Shown: positions 2,426-60,888, numbered from the stretch's first letter. The stretch: DNA of 64,000 bases from Campylobacter porcelli (GCF_002139855.1 NZ_CP018789.1:310001-374000), one strand, 5' to 3'. Translations and numbers: made by a program. Notes: generated from the letters alone by a model not told the origin.

Positions 2426-4621
2426 ATGGATAAAAAGACAATAGAAGCACATAAGATTAGCGATGATGAGTATAAAAAGATATTAGAGATTTTAGGGCGT
2501 GAGCCAAATTTACTTGAACTTGGTATATTTTCTGCGATGTGGAGTGAGCATTGTAGCTATAAATCAAGTAAAAAATATCTAAATGGCTTTCCGACTAAGG
2601 CTCCATGGGTACTTCAAGGTCCAGGCGAGAATGCTGGGGTGATAGATTGTGGCGATAGTATGGCAGCTGTATTTAAGATGGAGAGCCATAATCACCCAAG
2701 CTTTATTGAGCCATTTGCTGGTGCTGCAACTGGAGTTGGTGGTATATTTAGAGATATTTTTACCATGGGGGCTAGGGTTGAGGCGAGTATGAACTCACTT
2801 CGGTTTGGTCAAGTGCATGGCGATACAAAGATTAGTCGCCATCAACGCTATTTGGTAAAAGGCGTGGTATCTGGCATTAGCCACTATGGCAACTGTATGG
2901 GTGTGCCAACTATTGGCGGTGAAACCACATTTGATGAGAGCTTTAATGGTAATATTTTAGTCAATGCTTTTGGGCTTGGAATTTGTAAAAGTGATGAGAT
3001 ATTTTATGCTAAGGCTGAAGGGGTAGGAAACCCGGTTATATATGTTGGCTCAAAGACTGGTAGAGATGGTCTTGGTGGGGCTGTGATGTCAAGTGATAGC
3101 TTTAATGAAGAGAATAAATCTTTAAGGCCAACAGTGCAAGTTGGGGATCCATTTGCTGAAAAGCTCTTAATGGAGGCTTGCTTGGAGCTATTTAAATGCG
3201 ATTATATAGTTGGAATTCAAGATATGGGTGCAGCTGGACTTACATCAAGTAGCTTTGAGATGGCTGGTAGAAGCGGTAGCGGTATGAAGCTATATTTAGA
3301 TAGAGTTCCTATGCGTGAAAGTGGAATGACGCCATATGAATTAATGCTTAGCGAGTCTCAAGAAAGAATGCTAATTTGTGCTAAAAAGGGTTGTGAAGAT
3401 AAGATAAAAGCGATATTTGATAAATGGGATTTAGATGCTGAGATTATAGGAGAAGTAACTGATAGTGGCATAATGGAGCTATACTGGCATAATGAGTTAG
3501 CTGGTAGCGTGCCAATAGCTCCACTTAGCGAGGCCGCACCAATACTAAATCGCCCAACTAGCAGACCAAAATATCTTGATGAGATCGCAAATATAAATTT
3601 AAATAATATATCAAAAATCAGCAATCAAGAGGCCTTTGAGCTATTAATCAAAGATTTAAATGTGGCAAATAAGAGTTTTATTTATGATCAATATGACTCA
3701 ACAGTAGGCACAAATGTGATTAAAAAAGCTGGTAAATTGGGTGCTGCTGTAATGAGAATTAAGCAAAATGGCAAGTCAATTGCTATGGGCATGGAGTGTA
3801 ATACAAGGCATAATTATGTAAATCCTAAAATCGGCGCTGCAGCTGCAGTCGCAGCTAGTGGGCGAAAGGTGGCTATGAGTGGTGCAACTCCGCTTGCGAT
3901 TACTGATTGTCTAAACTATGGTAATCCGCAAAATCCAGAGGTTATGTGGCAGTTCGCACAAGGTTGCGAAGGGATTAAAGAGGCGTGTGCAAAGCTAAAT
4001 ACTCCAGTAGTTAGCGGTAATGTAAGCTTGTATAATGAGACAGATGGAGTTAGTATCCAGCCTACACCAAGCATAGTATCAGTAGGCGTAGGAGATGATG
4101 CTAAAAATAGCTTGATTAGCGAATTTAGCGGTGAAAATGTGAGTGTTTATCTACTTGGTAAGACTACTGGCGAGTTTGCAGGGTCGCTATATATGAAGGT
4201 GGTGGCAAATTTATGCGCTGGAGAGTTAAAAGAGATAGATTATAAGGCTGAAAGAGCACTTTGGGATTTGGTTATTGAGGCTAATAAAGATAGAGTATTG
4301 GAGTTTGCAAATAGCGTTGGAGTAGGTGGTATCGCCATTACTTTAGCCAAGATGGCAGCGGTTAGCTCTATTGGTTTTAATGGCAAAATAGAGCTTAAAG
4401 ATAGTCGCTTTATATTTGATGAGAGCTTTTCTAGGGCAGTTGTAGGGGTTAGAGATGAGCTTAAATTTAAAGAGTTAGCTAAGAAATATGGGATTGAATT
4501 TATTAAAATTGGCTTAAGTGGTGGCGATGAGTTTGTTTTAAATGATATTAAAATTAGCTTAAAAGATCTACAAAATATCTATTTTAGCGAGTTTGCTGCT
4601 GTTATTAAAAGTGAAGATTGA
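2426..4621 (+). CDS. purL: Phosphoribosylformylglycinamidine synthase subunit PurL
   Basis: PurL converts FGAR to FGAM in purine biosynthesis, taking ammonia from a PurQ/PurS complex. At 731 residues this is the small PurL of the three-subunit enzyme, not the ~1300-residue fused form. Visible motifs include WSEHCSYKSSK near the N-terminus, KMESHNHPS, the GGxxRDI loop (GGIFRDIFTMGAR), and GAAGLTSSSFEMA. A strong GGGGA-type ribosome-binding site lies upstream. Its TGA stop overlaps the start of the next gene. purH follows one gene later, so purine genes are clustered here. Confidence 0.95.
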   Translation: MDKKTIEAHKISDDEYKKILEILGREPNLLELGIFSAMWSEHCSYKSSKKYLNGFPTKAPWVLQGPGENAGVIDCGDSMAAVFKMESHNHPSFIEPFAGAATGVGGIFRDIFTMGARVEASMNSLRFGQVHGDTKISRHQRYLVKGVVSGISHYGNCMGVPTIGGETTFDESFNGNILVNAFGLGICKSDEIFYAKAEGVGNPVIYVGSKTGRDGLGGAVMSSDSFNEENKSLRPTVQVGDPFAEKLLMEACLELFKCDYIVGIQDMGAAGLTSSSFEMAGRSGSGMKLYLDRVPMRESGMTPYELMLSESQERMLICAKKGCEDKIKAIFDKWDLDAEIIGEVTDSGIMELYWHNELAGSVPIAPLSEAAPILNRPTSRPKYLDEIANINLNNISKISNQEAFELLIKDLNVANKSFIYDQYDSTVGTNVIKKAGKLGAAVMRIKQNGKSIAMGMECNTRHNYVNPKIGAAAAVAASGRKVAMSGATPLAITDCLNYGNPQNPEVMWQFAQGCEGIKEACAKLNTPVVSGNVSLYNETDGVSIQPTPSIVSVGVGDDAKNSLISEFSGENVSVYLLGKTTGEFAGSLYMKVVANLCAGELKEIDYKAERALWDLVIEANKDRVLEFANSVGVGGIAITLAKMAAVSSIGFNGKIELKDSRFIFDESFSRAVVGVRDELKFKELAKKYGIEFIKIGLSGGDEFVLNDIKISLKDLQNIYFSEFAAVIKSED

Positions 4622-49219: not shown

Positions 49220-49819
49220 TTAGCGAAGTTCAAAGGCAATCTCCATAGAAATGCTATATTTTTTATCTATTTTTTCTAAATTTGGCTTTGTGTTTTTAAT
49301 AGCGTTTAAAGCTGCTTCATTTAGCAATTTATATTGGCTAGGGCGTGAGATTTTCTCATTGCTTATACCGCTTTTATCTATTTGAAACTCCACTCCCACT
49401 ACGCCACTTAATCTAGCTCTTCTAGCAGCTCTTGGATAGATGGTATTTTTGGCTATTTCATCTTTTAAGGCTTTAAATACTGGATCGTTACTACCTAGTG
49501 GTATTATTTGCTCTTGGGTAGCAAAGTAGTGTTTAGCTGGTGTTTGCGTTTCTTGTGAGTTATGATCTGTTTGTTTAATTTGTGCTTTGGGAGCTGGATT
49601 TGCAGATGGTAGTTTCGTGATTTTTTCGGCGGTTTTTGGCTTTTGTGGCTCTAGTTTTTTAAAATTTGGCTCTATGCTTTGAACTAGGAAAATTTCAAAA
49701 TCACTACTACTATTATCCTTGCCTAGATATATTTTGCTACCAGCTACTACAAGCCATAAAAGCACCACATATATAAGTAGCGAAAGTATAAATGATACTA
49801 GATCAAATACCCTTTGCAT
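49220..49819 (-). CDS. TonB-type energy transducer
   Basis: The 199-residue protein has an N-terminal membrane anchor (about 8-27), a Pro/Lys-rich spacer (about 53-100) and a C-terminal TonB domain with YPRAARRARLSGVVGVEFQID and the closing beta strand. It lies 5 bp after the TonB-dependent receptor gene on the same strand, so it likely energises that receptor. No exbB or exbD is nearby; they would be supplied from elsewhere. Confidence 0.87.
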   Translation of the reverse strand: MQRVFDLVSFILSLLIYVVLLWLVVAGSKIYLGKDNSSSDFEIFLVQSIEPNFKKLEPQKPKTAEKITKLPSANPAPKAQIKQTDHNSQETQTPAKHYFATQEQIIPLGSNDPVFKALKDEIAKNTIYPRAARRARLSGVVGVEFQIDKSGISNEKISRPSQYKLLNEAALNAIKNTKPNLEKIDKKYSISMEIAFELR

Positions 49820-49824
49820 AGTGC

Positions 49825-51771
49825 TTAGAAACTAGCTTTTAATTTTATCCAAAAGCTCCTACCTGGCTCATAAACCCTAGTGGTAGCTGGAATATCTAAA
49901 GTTGCTATTGCGGCTCCATTTTTGCTAGTATGATAGCTATATAGTGCGTTATTTAAATTCATCGCTGCTAACATTACTTGGTAATTATTATATTTATATC
50001 CAGCATTTAATCCAATAGTCCAAAAGCTATCGCTATAGCCTAGGTCTTTTCCGGCGACATTGCCGTAATTCTCCTTATATCTATGTTGGCTAGCATTGGC
50101 ATAAAAATCCAAATCAACAAACCACTCATTACGCACTAGCCCAGCTACAGCTTTAAATGCTAAAGGTGAGATTTGTGGTAGTGGGTCTCCATCTTTTAAT
50201 CCATTTGTATTTTTCAAATTTTTACCATATACATATGATAATCCAGCACCTAATTTATAAAAATTATCAATTAAAATTTCCATATCCATCTCCCCGCCCA
50301 TTAGGAGTGCATCTGTATTAAAAGCCGATGTAGTAGTGCCATAATTTAGGACAATATAATCATCAATTTTAGATAAAAATAAATTTGTGCTTAAATTTAT
50401 ATTTCCATCATCATAAAGAGCACCCAAATCGATTTGATGATTTTTTTCAGTTTTTAAGTTCATTCCATCAATCTTTTGAAACTCCCAAAAATCAGAAGTT
50501 CTCTCAGCTCTACCAACCCCAGCATAGAGGCTTAATGCGTCATAATATCTCTCATAACGCATAAATCCAGAGATTGGAGCTTGTATTTTAGAGCGGTCAA
50601 ATATCCCTATATTATACTTATCAATCTCAACCCTATCTAGTCTTAGACCGCCAAATATACCATAATTCTCGCTGAAATACTCACTTTGAGTAAATATAGA
50701 AGTTGTGCTAATTAGAGCATTTTTATTGTAATTTTGAGAAAAGACTCTATTTTGTGCGTCAGTAGCACTAGTGGCATTTTGTGCCATTCTGCTAGAGTGC
50801 TTATCTTCTTTATAAGACCCACCGATATATGTGGTTATATCATCAAAATTTAGCTTTATTTCAGCTTTAGTGCCTATAATCTCTCTTTTTGGATTGCTAA
50901 TATTATATCTATTTGGCATTGCTGGTCTTAGGCTAAAATTATCCATCACATGATCTATATAGTGGTAGTAGCCTTGTAAATTTAGAGTGTGTTTGCCTAA
51001 GACTTGCTCTAATGCAAGGTTATAAGACTCTCTTTGGAATTTTGTCCCATCCATAGCTCTATCAGCATAGGCTGCCTCACCATTGCCAAAATCCGCACTT
51101 AAGCTAATAGCACTCTCATCGTTTGGAGTTATAGTGCCAATTATAGCTCCTTGTTTGCGAAAATATTCTGAATGGACAATGTTGCCATCACCATCTTTAT
51201 AATTATCACTTTGATAAATTCCGCCATTAATTTGAATACTACCAAGCTCATTACCATCTATGGCCTCGCCACTTAGCTCTTTTTGATTAAAACTACCAGC
51301 TAACATAGATATATCAGCACCATAGCTAGCATTATCTAGTCTGATAATCCCCCTATCAAAGACCAATCCACCATTAACTAAAGCCCCATATCGCACATCT
51401 TGAGGACCTTTTATTATTTTTATGGAGCGATAGTTTTGTGGTTCGATATATGTGATGGCTGTATCCATTCTACCACCGCAACCGCCTTGAATTTCAGATC
51501 CATCTATATATATAGGAAGTCTAGCCGAAAGTCCTGAGCGATATGATACTTCACTACCGCCACCACCTTTTCTAACCATATTAAATCCGCTTATATCAAG
51601 CAAGGATTTGGCTAAATCTGGAGAGTTAAGTATGGTATCTTTGGTTATTTGGGTGGTGGTAGGATTGTCTAAAATATTTTTTTCATAGCTTTGAGTTACA
51701 TTTACCCTACCTAAATTCACATCTTGAGCATATAAACTTACAGCAGCACACAAAGCACAAAGCATTCTCAT
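49825..51771 (-). CDS. TonB-dependent copper receptor (OprC/NosA-like)
   Basis: The 648-residue outer-membrane protein has a signal peptide (about 1-15), a plug domain (about 30-140) and a 22-strand barrel ending in the terminal Phe (KLKASF). The plug contains GGCGGRMD with Cys98 and Met102, i.e. the CxxxM copper ligand pair described for Pseudomonas OprC, in the family context GGCGxRMDxxxxY...KGPQ. This sets it apart from siderophore and haem receptors. It is followed by its own tonB gene. The 99-bp upstream region is AT-rich and I could not assign an operator. Confidence 0.85.
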   Translation of the reverse strand: MRMLCALCAAVSLYAQDVNLGRVNVTQSYEKNILDNPTTTQITKDTILNSPDLAKSLLDISGFNMVRKGGGGSEVSYRSGLSARLPIYIDGSEIQGGCGGRMDTAITYIEPQNYRSIKIIKGPQDVRYGALVNGGLVFDRGIIRLDNASYGADISMLAGSFNQKELSGEAIDGNELGSIQINGGIYQSDNYKDGDGNIVHSEYFRKQGAIIGTITPNDESAISLSADFGNGEAAYADRAMDGTKFQRESYNLALEQVLGKHTLNLQGYYHYIDHVMDNFSLRPAMPNRYNISNPKREIIGTKAEIKLNFDDITTYIGGSYKEDKHSSRMAQNATSATDAQNRVFSQNYNKNALISTTSIFTQSEYFSENYGIFGGLRLDRVEIDKYNIGIFDRSKIQAPISGFMRYERYYDALSLYAGVGRAERTSDFWEFQKIDGMNLKTEKNHQIDLGALYDDGNINLSTNLFLSKIDDYIVLNYGTTTSAFNTDALLMGGEMDMEILIDNFYKLGAGLSYVYGKNLKNTNGLKDGDPLPQISPLAFKAVAGLVRNEWFVDLDFYANASQHRYKENYGNVAGKDLGYSDSFWTIGLNAGYKYNNYQVMLAAMNLNNALYSYHTSKNGAAIATLDIPATTRVYEPGRSFWIKLKASF

Positions 51772-51870
51772 AAACTCTCCTTAAAGATTTATATAAGTAA
51801 ATTTAATAATTATTTCAAATAGATTTATTCTCTAAATGATATTAAAATAATTATTAAATTAAACTTAGAT

Positions 51871-52740
51871 TTACACTTTAATATTGCTTTTATTTATGCT
51901 GTTTAAAAGGGTTGTTATAGAAGTGTTATCTAAATTTTGTAAATTAGCAAATCTCTTAAAAGCGTCAGAGTAAATTTGCCTTTTGCTACTATAAGTTGCG
52001 CTATTACTGCTTTTGCCTTTTATCGGCGTTCTCTTTTCATCAGCTTGTGGCTCATTTTGTGCTTTGGCTTGGGGATTATTTGTCTTATTTTCTTCTAATT
52101 TTACCCCATTTAAATTCATATCTTTGGTTAAATTTTTGATAAATTCCATACTATCAGGACTATCTTTCCAATGCGACATAAGCTGAAATTTGACAAAATC
52201 TTTTATCTGTTTTTCTTGTGCTTCATCTCCTTTTTTATAATTCCCAGGATTAAGCGTATCTTTTATAGCGTAATCAACATCTATATATTTATCTATATTT
52301 TGGTATAGAAATATATTAAAAGCGTCCTTTTTATCTATATTATCACCTAAACTTGGCATATTTTCTAAATTCAAACCGATGTTTTCTAACTCTGATTTGC
52401 TAAAAGTTGAGTTTTTAAAATCTTTACCCAAAGCTAGATTAAAATCTATTAAAGCATTATTAGCTGTATTTTTCCAGTTGATCTTTGCATTAAACTCAAC
52501 AACAAATCCTTTAAATATGCCAATTGTATTTTGAATTAAGCCTGAAATCAAAAAATTACTATCTAAGCTACTTCTATACGCACCTTTTGTAGCCCCATCG
52601 CTATGGTATTGCATCATTTGTGTTAGCAATCCAAAGTCATTTGGTGGATTTAGTAAGGTTAATTCATTCTTATCATACAAAGCTCTGTCTGCTTTCATAG
52701 AAGGGTCATATATGGGAGTAGCTGCATTTTTAATATCCAT
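51871..52740 (-). CDS. Hypothetical protein B of the C39 cluster
   Basis: I do not recognise this 289-residue protein. It has no signal peptide or membrane segment; a hydrophobic patch near 68-80 (LISGLIQNTIGIFKGFVV) is short. The C-terminal 65 residues resemble those of the upstream protein A: both have TPI-x-G-x-S-x-N-x-x-TY followed by amphipathic helices and end in IKV/LKV. It begins 12 bp after gene A, whose final codons supply part of the ribosome-binding region, so the two are co-transcribed. Confidence 0.75.
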   Translation of the reverse strand: MDIKNAATPIYDPSMKADRALYDKNELTLLNPPNDFGLLTQMMQYHSDGATKGAYRSSLDSNFLISGLIQNTIGIFKGFVVEFNAKINWKNTANNALIDFNLALGKDFKNSTFSKSELENIGLNLENMPSLGDNIDKKDAFNIFLYQNIDKYIDVDYAIKDTLNPGNYKKGDEAQEKQIKDFVKFQLMSHWKDSPDSMEFIKNLTKDMNLNGVKLEENKTNNPQAKAQNEPQADEKRTPIKGKSSNSATYSSKRQIYSDAFKRFANLQNLDNTSITTLLNSINKSNIKV

Positions 52741-52752
52741 TTAATAGCCTTT

Positions 52753-53745
52753 TTATACCTTTAAGTTTAATTTTGCTAGTTGTTTTAATATCTCAAGCTC
52801 CGTCTTGCCATTATCAAATTCGCTTTTAATCATCTCGTAAAGCTTTTTTAGCCTCTCTGTGGCTTCATCTTGATAAGTTTTATTATTTAATGAAAAGCCT
52901 TGGATTGGTGTAAAGGGCTTTTTTGTATCTTCTTTGTTAGCTTCATTTGAATTTGATTTATCATTTTTATATTCGCCAGCTTTTAGCTCTTTGAAAATAT
53001 TCACTGCATTTTTAGCATCTTCATCGCTTATATCTAACCCATATTGTATCTTTATGACATGCTTTGCCCACTGGGCTTTGAAGTCTTCTACGCTAAGGTC
53101 TGAGTCTAGTAAGGATATGGTGTGTGGTAGCTCTCCTTCAAGCTCATAAATTTGCCAAGGGCTTATTATGGAGTTGGCATTTTGTAGGGCTAACTCTTCT
53201 ACTGTGTATGGCGTGGTTCTAAGTGTGCGGCTTTTTGGATTTGGATTATACTGAAGTGCTTCTATCTGCTCTATTGCTATACCGCCACTTAAATCTATAA
53301 AATCTACCAAATCCTTAATCTCTTCTTTACTAAAATTTGGATCAAGTCCAGTTATCTTGCCCCAAATGCTTACTTTATCAGCACTATATCTAGTAAATCC
53401 ACTTAGCGGTCTATACTCATTTAATCCAGTTAATTTTACTCGCTCTTGATAGCTTAGCAAAGATAAATCACCGTTGATGATATCAAATTTTTGCGCATAT
53501 CCATATGTGCCATCGCTATTTTTTTGATAGCCAAATGCTTTAATGACCTTCTCTTTTTGAGTTTCATTTAAATTTAATTTTAAATCCAATTTCACATCTT
53601 CTGAGCTTATCTTATATGGTTTTATGCCATCTTGGCTATTATCTAAATTTGCATTATTACCAACAAAATTTTGTATCTTATCCATCCAGTTGTTGTAATC
53701 ATATAGATTACTGCTTATGGTGGCTAAATTTCCTATCTTATCCAT
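52753..53745 (-). CDS. Hypothetical protein A of the C39 cluster
   Basis: I do not recognise this 330-residue, charged, probably soluble protein without a Sec signal. A segment reads GLDPNFSKEEIKDLVDFIDLSGGIAIEQIEAL, an EF-hand-like or helical pair. Its C-terminal module (FTPIQGFSLNNKTYQ and two helices, ending LNLKV) is shared with protein B, and its last 24 codons are duplicated at 55900-55974. The ATG lies inside the end of the double-glycine protein gene (13-bp overlap), so translation is probably coupled to it. Confidence 0.75.
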   Translation of the reverse strand: MDKIGNLATISSNLYDYNNWMDKIQNFVGNNANLDNSQDGIKPYKISSEDVKLDLKLNLNETQKEKVIKAFGYQKNSDGTYGYAQKFDIINGDLSLLSYQERVKLTGLNEYRPLSGFTRYSADKVSIWGKITGLDPNFSKEEIKDLVDFIDLSGGIAIEQIEALQYNPNPKSRTLRTTPYTVEELALQNANSIISPWQIYELEGELPHTISLLDSDLSVEDFKAQWAKHVIKIQYGLDISDEDAKNAVNIFKELKAGEYKNDKSNSNEANKEDTKKPFTPIQGFSLNNKTYQDEATERLKKLYEMIKSEFDNGKTELEILKQLAKLNLKV

Positions 53746-54368
53746 AATCCACCTAACCTATCGGTAAAATTCTTTTCTACATTTGCTTTTATTTCACGGA
53801 TAATAGGATTATCTAAACTGGTGTTTGGATAACCAACACTGCCGTTATATAAATTGATGGCTGTAGGTATATATCTAAAATATGAATATCTTTGTCCTTG
53901 TGCATTTATCCCAATATTTCTACTAACTATAAATGATAAATAATATCCTTGAGCAAGCGTATATGGTCCAAGTGCACTAGTGTATTGATAAAATCTTGCT
54001 ATATTACTTTCCCAATGTGTTTTAGTTGTCTTATTTTGATAACATTCTGTAACACCCAAACCGCATATTCCAACTGTATTTGTATTTGGCAAAAAAGAAA
54101 TTAATTTTCCATTGCTTGCCCTGATCGAACTTAATTCTGTCGTATCATTAGGAATTGCAATAGCCATCATTAAACCATTTGAAGAGTTATCAATAGTATA
54201 TAATTGATATCCGCCTTTAATTTCTTGCATTTCTTTAGTATTCAATGTCTTAGCACCAAAACTATTGCTATTAAACATTCCATTTGTAGCAATGCTTAAT
54301 AGATCGCTTGCTTTTATATTTATGGTTAATAAAATAGTCAAGAAGACGCCAATACTTAGTTTTTTCAT
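53733..54368 (-). CDS. Sec-exported protein with a double-glycine leader, probable C39 peptidase substrate
   Basis: The 211-residue protein starts with a Sec signal peptide (about 1-20, ending IKA). Next comes LNTKEMQEIKGG (42-53), which fits the canonical double-glycine leader at L(-12), E(-8), M(-7), I(-4), G(-2), G(-1). Cleavage after Gly53 would leave a roughly 158-residue mature protein starting YQLYTIDNSS. The mature part has two Cys and many N, S and Y residues. It is preceded by 121 bp with a TATATT-type -10 and AAGGA. It is the only likely cargo visible beside the C39 peptidase gene. Confidence 0.8.
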   Translation of the reverse strand: MKKLSIGVFLTILLTINIKASDLLSIATNGMFNSNSFGAKTLNTKEMQEIKGGYQLYTIDNSSNGLMMAIAIPNDTTELSSIRASNGKLISFLPNTNTVGICGLGVTECYQNKTTKTHWESNIARFYQYTSALGPYTLAQGYYLSFIVSRNIGINAQGQRYSYFRYIPTAINLYNGSVGYPNTSLDNPIIREIKANVEKNFTDRLGGLWIR

Positions 54369-54489
54369 AATTTATCCTTTCTGTTGAAGTTTTCATATTT
54401 TAGTAAAATTTATGTTAAAATATAATTTTATAATATAACTAGTATCTATATTTTATTTTAAATAAAGAATTTATATTTAGTAAATTTAA

Positions 54490-55062
54490 TTAATTATCTA
54501 TTAATTTTCCATTTAATTTTATATCGATTTGATTAAAAATAAATTGAATTTTAGGCTCTACGATCAATGCATAACCGCCATTATTGCTTTTATCCCATAA
54601 TTTATAAAATTGTTCTTTTGAACTTATATATTCTCCGAAATTTGGATCAAATACTTTTATATAGTCTCCATCATAATTCATAGCAACAACAAAGTGTGGA
54701 TATCTTGGATCATTTTCTATTTTTACTATTATTGGTATTTTAAAATGATTAAATATACCTCGATTAATTTGATAACCAACTGAGCGGTAACCAAGTATTT
54801 TTAATGTGCGTTGTATATCCATAAAACTTATCATATTTGTATTAACAATATTGTTTTGTTTTAATTTTTGTAATATATCATTTTCGCTATATCTTTTTAC
54901 ATCTATTAAATTTAAAATAGTAGCTATACTTGCTGCACCGCAAGACTCTTCATAATTTTGTCTTACAACATTTTTATTTCTTATCTCATAATATGATGAG
55001 ACAATAAATTGAGAGTTTAATTGCTGAATTAGCAATAATAATAATATTAAAATTTTTGCCAT
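54490..55062 (-). CDS. Stand-alone exported C39 (bacteriocin-processing) peptidase
   Basis: The 190-residue protein has an N-terminal hydrophobic signal or anchor (about 1-17) and one papain-like C39 domain: Gln34 (oxyanion hole), Cys40 in ESCGAASIATIL, His122 in RYPHFVVAM and Asp138 in VFDPNFG, all in the usual order and spacing. C39 domains normally sit at the N-terminus of ABC exporters in the cytoplasm; here there is no transporter and the export signal places it in the periplasm. FapD of Pseudomonas has this layout. It overlaps the barrel gene by 16 bp. Confidence 0.87.
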   Translation of the reverse strand: MAKILILLLLLIQQLNSQFIVSSYYEIRNKNVVRQNYEESCGAASIATILNLIDVKRYSENDILQKLKQNNIVNTNMISFMDIQRTLKILGYRSVGYQINRGIFNHFKIPIIVKIENDPRYPHFVVAMNYDGDYIKVFDPNFGEYISSKEQFYKLWDKSNNGGYALIVEPKIQFIFNQIDIKLNGKLIDN

Positions 55063-55895
55063 ATATTTAAGCTAAATATATTATCTGGTGCAGCACTTGA
55101 ACCGCCAAAACTAGCGCTTATAGATAATGCGGTATCGTTGTCTACGCTATATGTAGAGCCTACACTATATGTTGGAATTGATCGTATATTTGTAGTTTTT
55201 TTGTTATTTATTTTATTGGCTGACTGAAATCTTTGTTCTATTCCCATATCTAATGTAATTTTAGGACTAAGCACTATATTTAGATCTCCACCGAATAATA
55301 AAGTATGCCCATAATCAATTTTGGCAAAATCAAAATTTCTTGATGCATTATATATTAAACCAGAATAAATAGAATAAACAACTGGATCGCTATATCCTTT
55401 TAATGTTCCTTTTAATAAAAATGATTTAAAATAAAAATGTTTACTATCTTTATTAGCTCTTTCATTTTGTATAACTGCAGATTGTAAAGTAATCATAGGT
55501 ATTAAATTGTTTATTTTATCTGCTCTATAATTAAATCCGATCCAAGAAGAATCAAATTGTGTCCTAGATTCGCTCTTTGGATCAAGTGTAAAATAATTGA
55601 TATACTCATTTCTTATGTAGCTTCCGCCAAATGAAGTCAAAATATCCAATTTGTCATCTATGGCATACATAAATATCTGATTCAAACTGGCTTGTTTTGT
55701 ATCATCCCATACAACAGGATCGCCTTGTATAGTTATAGATGGGTAATCTGTATATGTATTTGGATTACCAGAACTAAGCAGTGAAAAAGTAGTTATACTT
55801 CTAAGACCAATTTGTCTTTTAAATAAGCTATCAATTGTTATTGGATCAGATGCTAAAGCCAAACAAGGCAATAATACAAATAATACTTTTCTCAT
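55047..55895 (-). CDS. Outer-membrane beta-barrel protein of the C39 cluster
   Basis: The 282-residue protein has a signal peptide (about 1-15, ending ALAS) and amphipathic strands throughout, ending in IWQKF with the terminal Phe expected for BAM substrates. The estimated number of strands is about 12. It resembles the Phenol_MetA_deg/FapF-like class in pattern and in being beside a C39 peptidase, but homology cannot be shown by eye. It begins with an ATG whose ribosome-binding site (AAAGG) comes from the remnant of an A-like gene. Confidence 0.78.
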   Translation of the reverse strand: MRKVLFVLLPCLALASDPITIDSLFKRQIGLRSITTFSLLSSGNPNTYTDYPSITIQGDPVVWDDTKQASLNQIFMYAIDDKLDILTSFGGSYIRNEYINYFTLDPKSESRTQFDSSWIGFNYRADKINNLIPMITLQSAVIQNERANKDSKHFYFKSFLLKGTLKGYSDPVVYSIYSGLIYNASRNFDFAKIDYGHTLLFGGDLNIVLSPKITLDMGIEQRFQSANKINNKKTTNIRSIPTYSVGSTYSVDNDTALSISASFGGSSAAPDNIFSLNIWQKF

Positions 55896-55899
55896 GTTG

Positions 55900-55974
55900 T
55901 TATACCTTTAAATTTAATTTTGCTAGTTGCTTTAATATCTCAAGCTCCGTCTTGCCATTATCAAATTCGCTTTT
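55900..55974 (-). pseudogene. 75-bp remnant of an A-like gene (3' end)
   Basis: This segment matches 52753-52827, the last codons and stop of hypothetical gene A, at 73 of 75 bases. Identity stops at 55975, and no reading frame continues upstream. It ends 4 bp before the barrel gene start, as A ends just before B. It is a deleted A paralogue or a duplication scar. Confidence 0.85.
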
Positions 55975-56064
55975 CTAAAAATCTTATCTTTAAATATTGA
56001 GCTATTTTGACATAAAATATATTAAAATATAATTTAATAATATTATTAATGGTTGTATTTAAAC

Positions 56065-58515: not shown

Positions 58516-59286
58516 GTGGAATTTGTAAATTATCTTGGGCAAGAAAATGTAGTTACATTTTTTTTACTTCTTGTTAGAACTGGTGCTTTGATGGTGTTTT
58601 TCCCATTTTTTAACCATTTACAAATTCCAGTTGTCATCAAAGCCACGCTCTCATTTATGCTTACTCTTTACTTATTTCCACTTGCCCCACAGGTAAATCT
58701 TGATGGATTAAACATTCAGTATTTGATCTTAGAGGCCTTAGCAGAGATTATGCTTGGGCTGTGTGCGGGGCTATTTTTGACCTTGGTTTTTGGTGCGGTG
58801 CAGTTAGCTGGAGAGCAAATTTCGATGATTATGGGCTTTTCGATGGCTACGGTTATTGATCCACAAAGTGGAATTAATGCTCCACTAATCTCAAATATCT
58901 TAAATTTGATTGTGTTGCTAGCTTTTTTACTATTTGATGGGCATCATTTGATACTATATTTTTTAGCTTATGGGCTTGAGTTTATCCCTCTTGGCGGATT
59001 TTATCCTGAGCAAAATATCATTAAATACGCAGCTCAAGGTATGGTAAATCTCTTTTTATACGGCTTTATCATCTCATTTCCTATTTTAGCTCTTACTTTA
59101 ATGTCAGATTTAATATTTGGAATGCTTATGAAAACCATGCCGCAATTTAATCTACTTGTAGTTGGCTATCCTATTAAAATTACCATCGCATTTGTGGTAT
59201 TGATGGCTATACTTGCTGTGATTGTGAAGGTTTTTACAACGCTAATGATGAAGGTTTTAAATGATTTACCAAGTTTATTTTACTAA
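58516..59286 (+). CDS. fliR: Flagellar export apparatus protein FliR
   Basis: The 256-residue integral membrane protein of the type III export gate shows the family pattern FFLLLVRTGALMVFFPFF at the N-terminus and AEIMLGLCAGLFLTLVFGAVQLAGEQISMIMGFSMATVIDPQSG. Start GTG with a GGTGA-type upstream site. It precedes the acidic protein, gmk, tatA and argS, the order in C. jejuni. Confidence 0.94.
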   Translation: MEFVNYLGQENVVTFFLLLVRTGALMVFFPFFNHLQIPVVIKATLSFMLTLYLFPLAPQVNLDGLNIQYLILEALAEIMLGLCAGLFLTLVFGAVQLAGEQISMIMGFSMATVIDPQSGINAPLISNILNLIVLLAFLLFDGHHLILYFLAYGLEFIPLGGFYPEQNIIKYAAQGMVNLFLYGFIISFPILALTLMSDLIFGMLMKTMPQFNLLVVGYPIKITIAFVVLMAILAVIVKVFTTLMMKVLNDLPSLFY

Positions 59287-59346
59287 ATAAAGCAATACAT
59301 AATGAAAAATTTCGTAAAATAACGCAAATTTTTTAAGGTGTCATCT

Positions 59347-60888
59347 ATGAAAGTAATTTTGCTAAATAACAACCCAGCAGTTTCAAAGCTTATAAGTGTG
59401 AGTTTAAATAAACTAGGATATGAATTTGTAGAGATTGATAATTTAGAAACTCTAGCTAGTGATAATGCTGATTTGATTATATGTGATAGTGGGCTTTATG
59501 ATAATCAGGTAGATTACTTACAATATGCTAAAAATCAGCTATTTTTACTCCCTAGAAATAGATCTGATGAGTATAATCTACCAAAAGAGCAGATACTACA
59601 AAAACCATTTTTGCCAACTGATTTTATAGATATGATAAATGGAATTTTAAAAGCTACTCCTATGGAGATTAAGCCTACAAAACAAGAGTTAAATAAGCCT
59701 AATGATGGTATAAAAATAGGCAATGAATTTGGAGAAATTCAAGATATAGATGATATGAAATTTGACTCTGGCGATGATCTTAGCGATTTTGCTGATTTTA
59801 GCGATGATGAGCTACTAGATCATGATGGTGAAATAGAAGAGAAATTTGTAGAAAATGAAGTAAAAGAGCTAAAAGATGAGGATTTAGGGCAAGCCACAGA
59901 TGAAATTAGTGATGATATCAGCCATATAGATGAGATTAGCGACCATACTGGTGGGAGCATAGATGAATTTAGCGAAATTAGCGATGATGAGATCAATGAA
60001 GTCAAAGATAAATTTGCTCAGATTGATGATATTAATAGCAATGATGATATACAAGCTATAGATGAGACCAAAGATGAATTTAGCGGTATAGATGAAGTTA
60101 GTGATAATAGCGGCGATATTCAAGTGATAGATGAAGTTAAAGATGAATTTGCTCAGATTGATGATATTAATAGCAATGATGATATACAAGCTATAGATGA
60201 GATTAGCGACCATACTGGTGGGAGCATAGACGAATTTAGCGAAATTGATGATGGAATTAGCGAGATTATTGATGAGATTAAAGATGATAAAATTAAAGAA
60301 ATTAGCGATGATGAAGCAATTAACACTAGCGAAATTAAAGATAATGATGATAAGCCAAGCATCCAAGATATAACAAATGAGTATAAAAATATAGAACTTG
60401 ATATATCTGCATTAGATGATTTGCCAGATGATGAAGTAAAATCTGAGCCCACAATAGAGGTTGAAGAGGTCAAAGAGCCAAAAGAGATTGATGATCTAGA
60501 CTATACAGAGAATTTAGATAAGCTAAGCGATATGCTTGATGAGATAGATAATATGGATTGTAAGGATGAGGGTGTGAGTCAAACTATAGAAAATGAAGCT
60601 AAAATCGCTGATTTAAGTAGCTCTTATAAGGCTAATACAATTGATGAGATAGATGAAGTGGCGATTAAAGCAGCTTTAAATGAGGATATTAGCCAAACGC
60701 TAGAAGAGACTAAGTTGGTAAAATCAGATGAAACCACTAGTGAAAATGAGAACAAAGATGAATTAGCTAAGGTTTTAGCTACACAAATTAGCGATGAAAT
60801 TAGTAAAGCTTTAAGTAGTAGTGCGTTAAAAGATATATTAAAAGATATTAATATTAATGTAAATATTAGTTTTAAAGGCGATAAATGA
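59347..60888 (+). CDS. Highly acidic repeat protein with receiver-like N-terminus
   Basis: The 513-residue protein has an N-terminal domain (about 1-100) with the strand-helix rhythm of a receiver domain (VILLNNNPAVSKLISVSLNKLG, DLIICDSGLYDN, LQKPFLPTDF with the usual K-P), then about 350 residues very rich in D, E, S and I and organised in near-identical repeats, and a C-terminal helical end. I chose the ATG at 59347 with AAGG 8 bp upstream, in preference to a GTG at 59338. The C. jejuni gene at this position is also called highly acidic. Function unknown. Confidence 0.82.
   Translation: MKVILLNNNPAVSKLISVSLNKLGYEFVEIDNLETLASDNADLIICDSGLYDNQVDYLQYAKNQLFLLPRNRSDEYNLPKEQILQKPFLPTDFIDMINGILKATPMEIKPTKQELNKPNDGIKIGNEFGEIQDIDDMKFDSGDDLSDFADFSDDELLDHDGEIEEKFVENEVKELKDEDLGQATDEISDDISHIDEISDHTGGSIDEFSEISDDEINEVKDKFAQIDDINSNDDIQAIDETKDEFSGIDEVSDNSGDIQVIDEVKDEFAQIDDINSNDDIQAIDEISDHTGGSIDEFSEIDDGISEIIDEIKDDKIKEISDDEAINTSEIKDNDDKPSIQDITNEYKNIELDISALDDLPDDEVKSEPTIEVEEVKEPKEIDDLDYTENLDKLSDMLDEIDNMDCKDEGVSQTIENEAKIADLSSSYKANTIDEIDEVAIKAALNEDISQTLEETKLVKSDETTSENENKDELAKVLATQISDEISKALSSSALKDILKDININVNISFKGDK
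59926..60246 (+). repeat. In-frame repeats inside the acidic protein gene
   Basis: A block starting 59926 (ATAGATGAGATTAGCGACCA...) recurs from 60193 with one substitution over about 54 bp, 267 bp apart. A second block from 60004 (about 63 bp) recurs from 60139 with one difference, 135 bp apart. Both spacings are multiples of three, so recombination would change protein length without shifting the frame. Confidence 0.85.

Follow-up and report, generated by a model that had tools for sequence, protein, structure and literature searches.

A locus on the minus strand of a 64,000-nucleotide (nt) window of Campylobacter porcelli (GCF_002139855.1 NZ_CP018789.1:310001-374000) is probably a secretion locus that is linked to the flagellum and built from cassettes. 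Its genes, in the order barrel, C39 peptidase, cargo, gene A and gene B (Table 1), belong to a gene set that sequence comparison reveals as recurrent and swappable. The exporter part comprises an outer-membrane barrel and a stand-alone periplasmic C39 peptidase, whose genes overlap by 16 nt. The cassette part comprises a cargo with a double-glycine (GG) leader and a partner, gene A, whose start overlaps the end of the cargo gene by 13 nt. This reading draws on gene content, co-occurrence, conservation of leader and active site, co-variation, cassette transfer, restriction to flagellate genomes and the RpoN-type promoters of relatives, along with a predicted barrel fold. The five open reading frames of the original prediction exist with the coordinates and strand that it gave. 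Instead of a locus with a single cargo, the system proves to be an array of cassettes, with as many as six cargo-partner pairs in one locus (L075). Likewise, its 'two coupled genes of unknown function' is an incomplete description of the partner slot, whose genes outnumber all other parts of the system and have features of their own, being Cys-free, flagellum-linked and co-varying with the cargo. Two points were absent from it, namely a 78-nt repeat upstream of the barrel and the membership of gene A in a large partner family. No published description of the locus was found in the open-access papers searched, subscription papers being outside the search.

The C39 protein matches PF03412 with 64.7 bits (E 1e-17), and is the only such match in the genome of 1.64 Mb. 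It is a stand-alone protein of 190 amino acids (aa) with no fused ATP-binding cassette (ABC) transporter domains. The predicted catalytic residues are present, although each had been numbered one too low when counted from Met1, and the Gln, Cys, His and Asp are invariant in 39/39 relatives. The N-terminus is hydrophobic, and the presumed signal cleavage site has Ala in 36 of the 39. Equivalog membership is not reached for FapD (74.4 bits against a cut-off of 330), nor is that of the FilB model NF050078 (60.9 bits against 475). The barrel has the signal peptide and terminal Phe that had been described, and the Phe is found in 19/19 complete relatives. Its AlphaFold2 model, built from six sequences with a mean pLDDT of 72.6, predicts twelve strands after a short helix. 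The first strand begins at residue 30, following the signal peptide and the helix, and the coiled coil of FapF is absent from the model. In a Foldseek search of the PDB, the 18 best matches are all FapF chains, followed by COG4313 barrels; the FapF matches have a TM of about 0.7 at 12-14% identity, for a model of moderate confidence. Sequence searches of the barrel and of the cargo against the PDB gave no match. A C. volucris barrel (L068 3077-3931) is labelled 'HmcD domain-containing', and no Pfam or NCBIfam match supports this label or the related haemocin idea.

In a set of 153 family genomes, 41 from five genera encode relatives of the C39 protein, 34 have barrel relatives and 42 have cargo relatives. 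A substantial C39 match is found in 33 genomes; 30 of them have the barrel (p 4e-24) and 31 the GG cargo. The barrel is not a common unrelated porin, and the C39 gene is not regularly found without a GG-leader neighbour, either of which would have spoken against the earlier proposal of a Sec/C39/barrel system without an ABC transporter. That proposal is well supported as a prediction from sequence.

Among the closest known counterparts is the Fap system of Pseudomonas, which likewise has a Sec-exported stand-alone C39 protein, a barrel with the 12-stranded fold predicted here, and no ABC transporter. In contrast, the window barrel lacks the N-terminal coiled coil, its sequences fall below the family cut-offs, the substrate has a canonical GG leader without amyloid repeats, and the genes form cassette arrays with a partner gene. 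The pair therefore probably acts in the manner of FapD/FapF, although by sequence it does not belong to that family. In the Fap system, FapD itself is exported by Sec, and secretion requires its active-site Cys (PMC5557850). The substrate of stand-alone periplasmic C39 proteases is unclear even in this founding system (PMC5557850). Nearly every exporter found here comes with GG-leader substrates, and the substrate question therefore becomes directly testable. Acinetobacter Fil also has a stand-alone C39 peptidase, FilB, but the window protein is far under its cut-off and other Fil proteins were not seen. ABC bacteriocin exporters with a peptidase domain (TIGR01193) share the C39 fold and the GG-leader logic, whereas the C39 protein of the window is placed in the periplasm and carries no ABC transporter domains.

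The description of the cargo as a Sec-exported double-glycine protein stands. After the Sec signal it reads LNTKEMQEIKGG, ending in Gly52-Gly53, and it conforms to the double-glycine leader pattern LSxxE(M/L)xx(V/I)xGG. The 'bacteriocin' leader model TIGR01847 gives 15.9 bits against a cut-off of 15.7. The double glycine is present in every one of the 79 relatives whose leader could be aligned, and their pre-GG consensus following the Sec signal is G-A-[LIV]-S-D-N-S-x-G-V-K-x-L-S-L-D-E-M-K-E-V-K-GG, a conservation well beyond chance. The median leader distance is 0.03 within a locus and 0.53 between loci, while mature domains diverge strongly even within a locus (distance 0.89). The mature domain has two cysteines in 38/69 cases and none in 30/69. 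The cargo very probably travels by the Sec/C39/barrel route. Csep1 of C. concisus, in which pCCON16 carries the locus, was considered as a cargo relative and rejected: no sequence evidence linking it to the cargo was found, and its published fold is an alpha solenoid (PMC5893538, PMC12904459).

Neighbour clustering gave four recurrent families, of which the gene A family is the largest with 84 members in 31 loci. Each of 64 cargo genes has a downstream neighbour on the same strand, and 55 of these neighbours are in family A; the others are mostly different, Cys-free proteins. In L061, L058, L062 and L054 the slot holds proteins without sequence relation to family A, almost all of them Cys-free, and two such proteins in L058 carry RpoN-type sites. 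Gene B moves with the cassette (its protein is 95% identical in another genome, G003), and was rejected as an ordinary family A member since the resemblance is limited to the tail (16 bits). Partners are 200-460 aa in length against 90-160 aa for the cargoes, and have no signal peptide. They are free of Cys in 64/74 cases, against 24/136 background proteins (p 4e-23), and their N-termini are polar and weakly charged, with 42% Ser/Thr/Asn/Gln against 25% (p 2e-14). In other loci, long partners match NF046095, the 'Cj0814 family flagellar-dependent secreted protein', with 120-281 bits; this model is found in 92/153 family genomes and in 0/14 controls. In some C. jejuni-like chromosomes, moreover, Cj0814-type genes have remnants of C39 as neighbours. 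The description of the Cj0814 family, on the other hand, includes neither a C39/barrel exporter nor a GG cargo, and the window partner falls below detection.

The restriction of partners to flagellate genomes points to the flagellar apparatus. FlhA is present in 118/153 genomes; partners occur in 94 of these 118 and in 1/35 of those without FlhA, an 89%-complete metagenome-assembled genome (MAG; p 3e-17). The association persists when the aflagellate genus g3 is excluded (p 4e-11). Barrels occur in 34 genomes with FlhA and in none without it, and within genus g5 the system is found in three flagellate genomes and is missing from the one aflagellate genome. In the wider order, a strong barrel match (E < 1e-40) is seen in 23 genomes, and FlhA is present in all but one of them, a 79%-complete MAG. 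Promoters in relatives follow the same direction. The RpoN-type pattern used was GGAA-N5/6-TTGCT, of the general type GG-N10-GC; the C. jejuni motif is given as GG-N8-TTGCTT (PMC11187230). Such sites were counted before 34/115 partners, against an expectation of 1.6, and before 12/34 barrels, against 0.3, but before 0/38 C39 genes, 2/49 cargo genes and 6/257 other genes. They are usually 45-75 nt before the start, and in many cassettes the partner has its own site ~70 nt upstream. FliA-like sites precede 11/115 partners. The Cj0814 family also brings an experimental result, as CJM1_0791 (48.9 kDa), presumably a Cj0814 family gene from its size and NCBIfam name, was present in the supernatant in a flagellum-dependent manner in a single study (PMC5223770). 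Taken at the family level, the absence of a signal peptide, the polar Cys-poor N-terminus and the flagellate hosts are traits of flagellar substrates, and on sequence grounds export of the partner by the flagellar apparatus is somewhat favoured.

Several points weigh against this reading. The flagellar link of the window partner is taken from its relatives, because it has no NF046095 match (threshold 80 bits) and the barrel, cargo and partner genes in the window have neither an RpoN-type nor a FliA-like site upstream. Flagellar presence is clustered on the tree, which weakens the p-values. The flagellum-dependence of CJM1_0791 comes from that one study, which terms the protein a putative lipoprotein and in which its absence may be indirect (PMC5223770). 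In addition, partner genes occur without cargo in 55 genomes, and the structure model of the window cargo is unusable (pLDDT 42.6).

Cargo and partner vary together. Over 46 pairs, mature-cargo distance correlates with the partner core (Mantel rho 0.47, p 0.001), whereas for the leader no such correlation is seen (rho 0.10, p 0.12). Within 11 C. jejuni-type pairs, the distance between mature cargoes follows that of partner residues about 245-337 (rho 0.78, familywise p 0.0004), and residues 1-245, nearer to the cargo gene in the DNA, show no tracking. The limitation to residues 245-337 favours recognition over linkage, and plain linkage was rejected as the cause for this segment since nearer gene parts do not co-vary. 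Direct recognition between cargo and partner is accordingly somewhat favoured.

The same co-variation would be expected of a polymorphic bacteriocin system, in which the exported cargo would act as a toxin on related bacteria, the partner would be its cytoplasmic immunity protein, and partner-only arrays would be orphan immunity genes. The locus resembles polymorphic toxin or bacteriocin-immunity cassettes in its constant trafficking part, variable payload, paired downstream gene and exchange by recombination. A partner follows every cargo, the leader is constant and the mature domain variable, and the cargo on pSKBC5-2 is annotated 'bacteriocin'. Cargo without a partner is found in 2/42 genomes, and the reverse is common and occurs in arrays (L096, L102); g2 genomes, too, retain arrays of partners alone. 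However, the paired gene is export-like and not immunity-like in its features. Immunity does not predict Cys-free polar N-termini, absence from aflagellate genomes, RpoN-type partner promoters or a flagellum-dependent family in the supernatant; the partners are large beside the cargoes, and the slot is also filled by unrelated proteins with the same export-like features. This explanation is considered unlikely, and it keeps its place mainly because partner-only arrays and C39 remnants fit orphan immunity genes too.

The partner could instead assist the cargo as a chaperone or escort in the cytoplasm or periplasm, without being secreted itself. Translational coupling in the window, opposite median net charges (cargo +4, partner -7) and the co-varying segment are in line with such a role. 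On the contrary, many partners have their own RpoN-type promoter, the partner stands alone in many genomes and is restricted to flagellate ones, and a periplasmic role needs the signal peptide that partners lack, which makes an escort quite improbable. A true Fap-type functional amyloid locus with the cargo as fibre subunit would share the FapF-like barrel and the periplasmic C39 protein, but is highly improbable, as the cargo is hypervariable, often has a Cys pair and lacks amyloid repeats, the FapD and FilB models stay far under cut-off, and no FapA/B/C/E-like family is present among the scanned neighbours (49220-55895).

For the preferred flagellum-linked cassette locus, we infer the transport steps, the cleavage, the binding and the biological purpose as follows. 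Sec would take the cargo across the inner membrane, the C39 protease would cut it in the periplasm after Gly-Gly, and the mature domain would exit via the FapF-like barrel. The partner from the next gene would most likely exit through the flagellar type III export apparatus and recognize the mature cargo on the cell surface or beyond it. The constant ends, namely the cargo leader and the partner tail, would let cargo-partner pairs be swapped, and the purpose may be surface attachment or antagonism. The most specific form of this proposal, one gene pair with two exit machines (Sec/C39/FapF-like barrel and flagellar type III), flagellar promoters and matched, exchangeable products that meet outside, is put forward tentatively.

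Campylobacter and Helicobacter are among the bacteria that have loci of this kind on chromosomes and plasmids, and in C. jejuni and C. coli some lie on conjugative plasmids. The conjugative plasmid of C. jejuni huA17 (L071, 8569-16373) carries four tandem cargo-partner cassettes that are annotated as hypothetical throughout. In the window, the last 78 nt of gene A recur directly upstream of the barrel with 96% identity. A sister MAG from sheep caecum (G010) has a whole cargo-partner cassette between rdgB and barrel-C39, where the window has this remnant, and the window has thus probably lost one cassette. A block at another site in G003 shares 95.8% identity with the part of the window that runs from about cargo codon 20 through gene B, while rdgB is only 71% identical between the two genomes; sequence identity hence indicates horizontal transfer of the block with a leader swap. 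No PHROG match of note pointed to a phage origin. On contig 94 of G010 (L072/L052), partial rdgB copies (115-235 and 3670-4149) flank a cargo-partner-barrel-C39 module, and rdgB is present over its full gene length on another contig; the partial copies may mark integration of the module or an assembly artefact of the MAG. C. jejuni-like chromosomes have kept Cj0814-type genes with C39 fragments alongside (L100, L101, L107), and Cj0814 may be a relic of such a locus. These fragments and the partner-only arrays fit either a partner function without cargo or orphan immunity genes. The system offers a genomic home for the flagellar-dependent secreted proteins of the Cj0814 family and suggests a left-over origin for Cj0814 itself; it also accounts for uncharacterised arrays on the C. 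jejuni and C. coli plasmids.

Table 1. Features of the secretion locus and its surroundings, in window positions
Feature	Position	Strand	Remarks
Outer-membrane barrel, predicted FapF-like fold (12 strands)	55047..55895	-	282 aa; signal peptide, terminal Phe; AlphaFold2 model and PDB matches
Stand-alone periplasmic C39 peptidase	54490..55062	-	190 aa; signal peptide; Gln35, Cys41, His123, Asp139
Cargo	53733..54368	-	Codons 1-20 Sec signal, 21-53 pre-GG leader; then 158 aa of variable mature domain with two Cys
Double-glycine codons 52-53 of cargo	54210..54215	-	From sequence and leader profile; predicted C39 cleavage after Gly53
Partner gene A	52753..53745	-	330 aa, without signal peptide or Cys; 84 family members across 31 loci
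Gene B	51871..52740	-	289 aa; Cys-free; C-terminal tail weakly like that of gene A
78-nt remnant, 3' end of a former partner gene	55897..55974	-	Upstream of barrel; 96% repeat copy
Gene A 3' end, second copy of the 78-nt repeat	52750..52827	-	96% identity
AT-rich stretch, possible left-over cassette promoter region (weak)	56003..56060	.	74% like 54396-54453 upstream of cargo
Transferred block	51788..54311	-	95.8% identical to G003 block; starts inside cargo signal/leader, about codon 20

Two neighbouring regions of the window were also recorded. At positions 49220-51771 lies a TonB-dependent receptor with a relation to the copper receptor model TIGR01778 (391 bits, under the cut-off of 472), and a TonB-family protein comes after it. 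Positions 59338-60888 encode an acidic protein of 516 aa with internal repeats such as ISDHTGGSIDEFSEI and DEFAQIDDINSNDDIQAIDE, and adjoin a FliR-like gene at 58516-59286.
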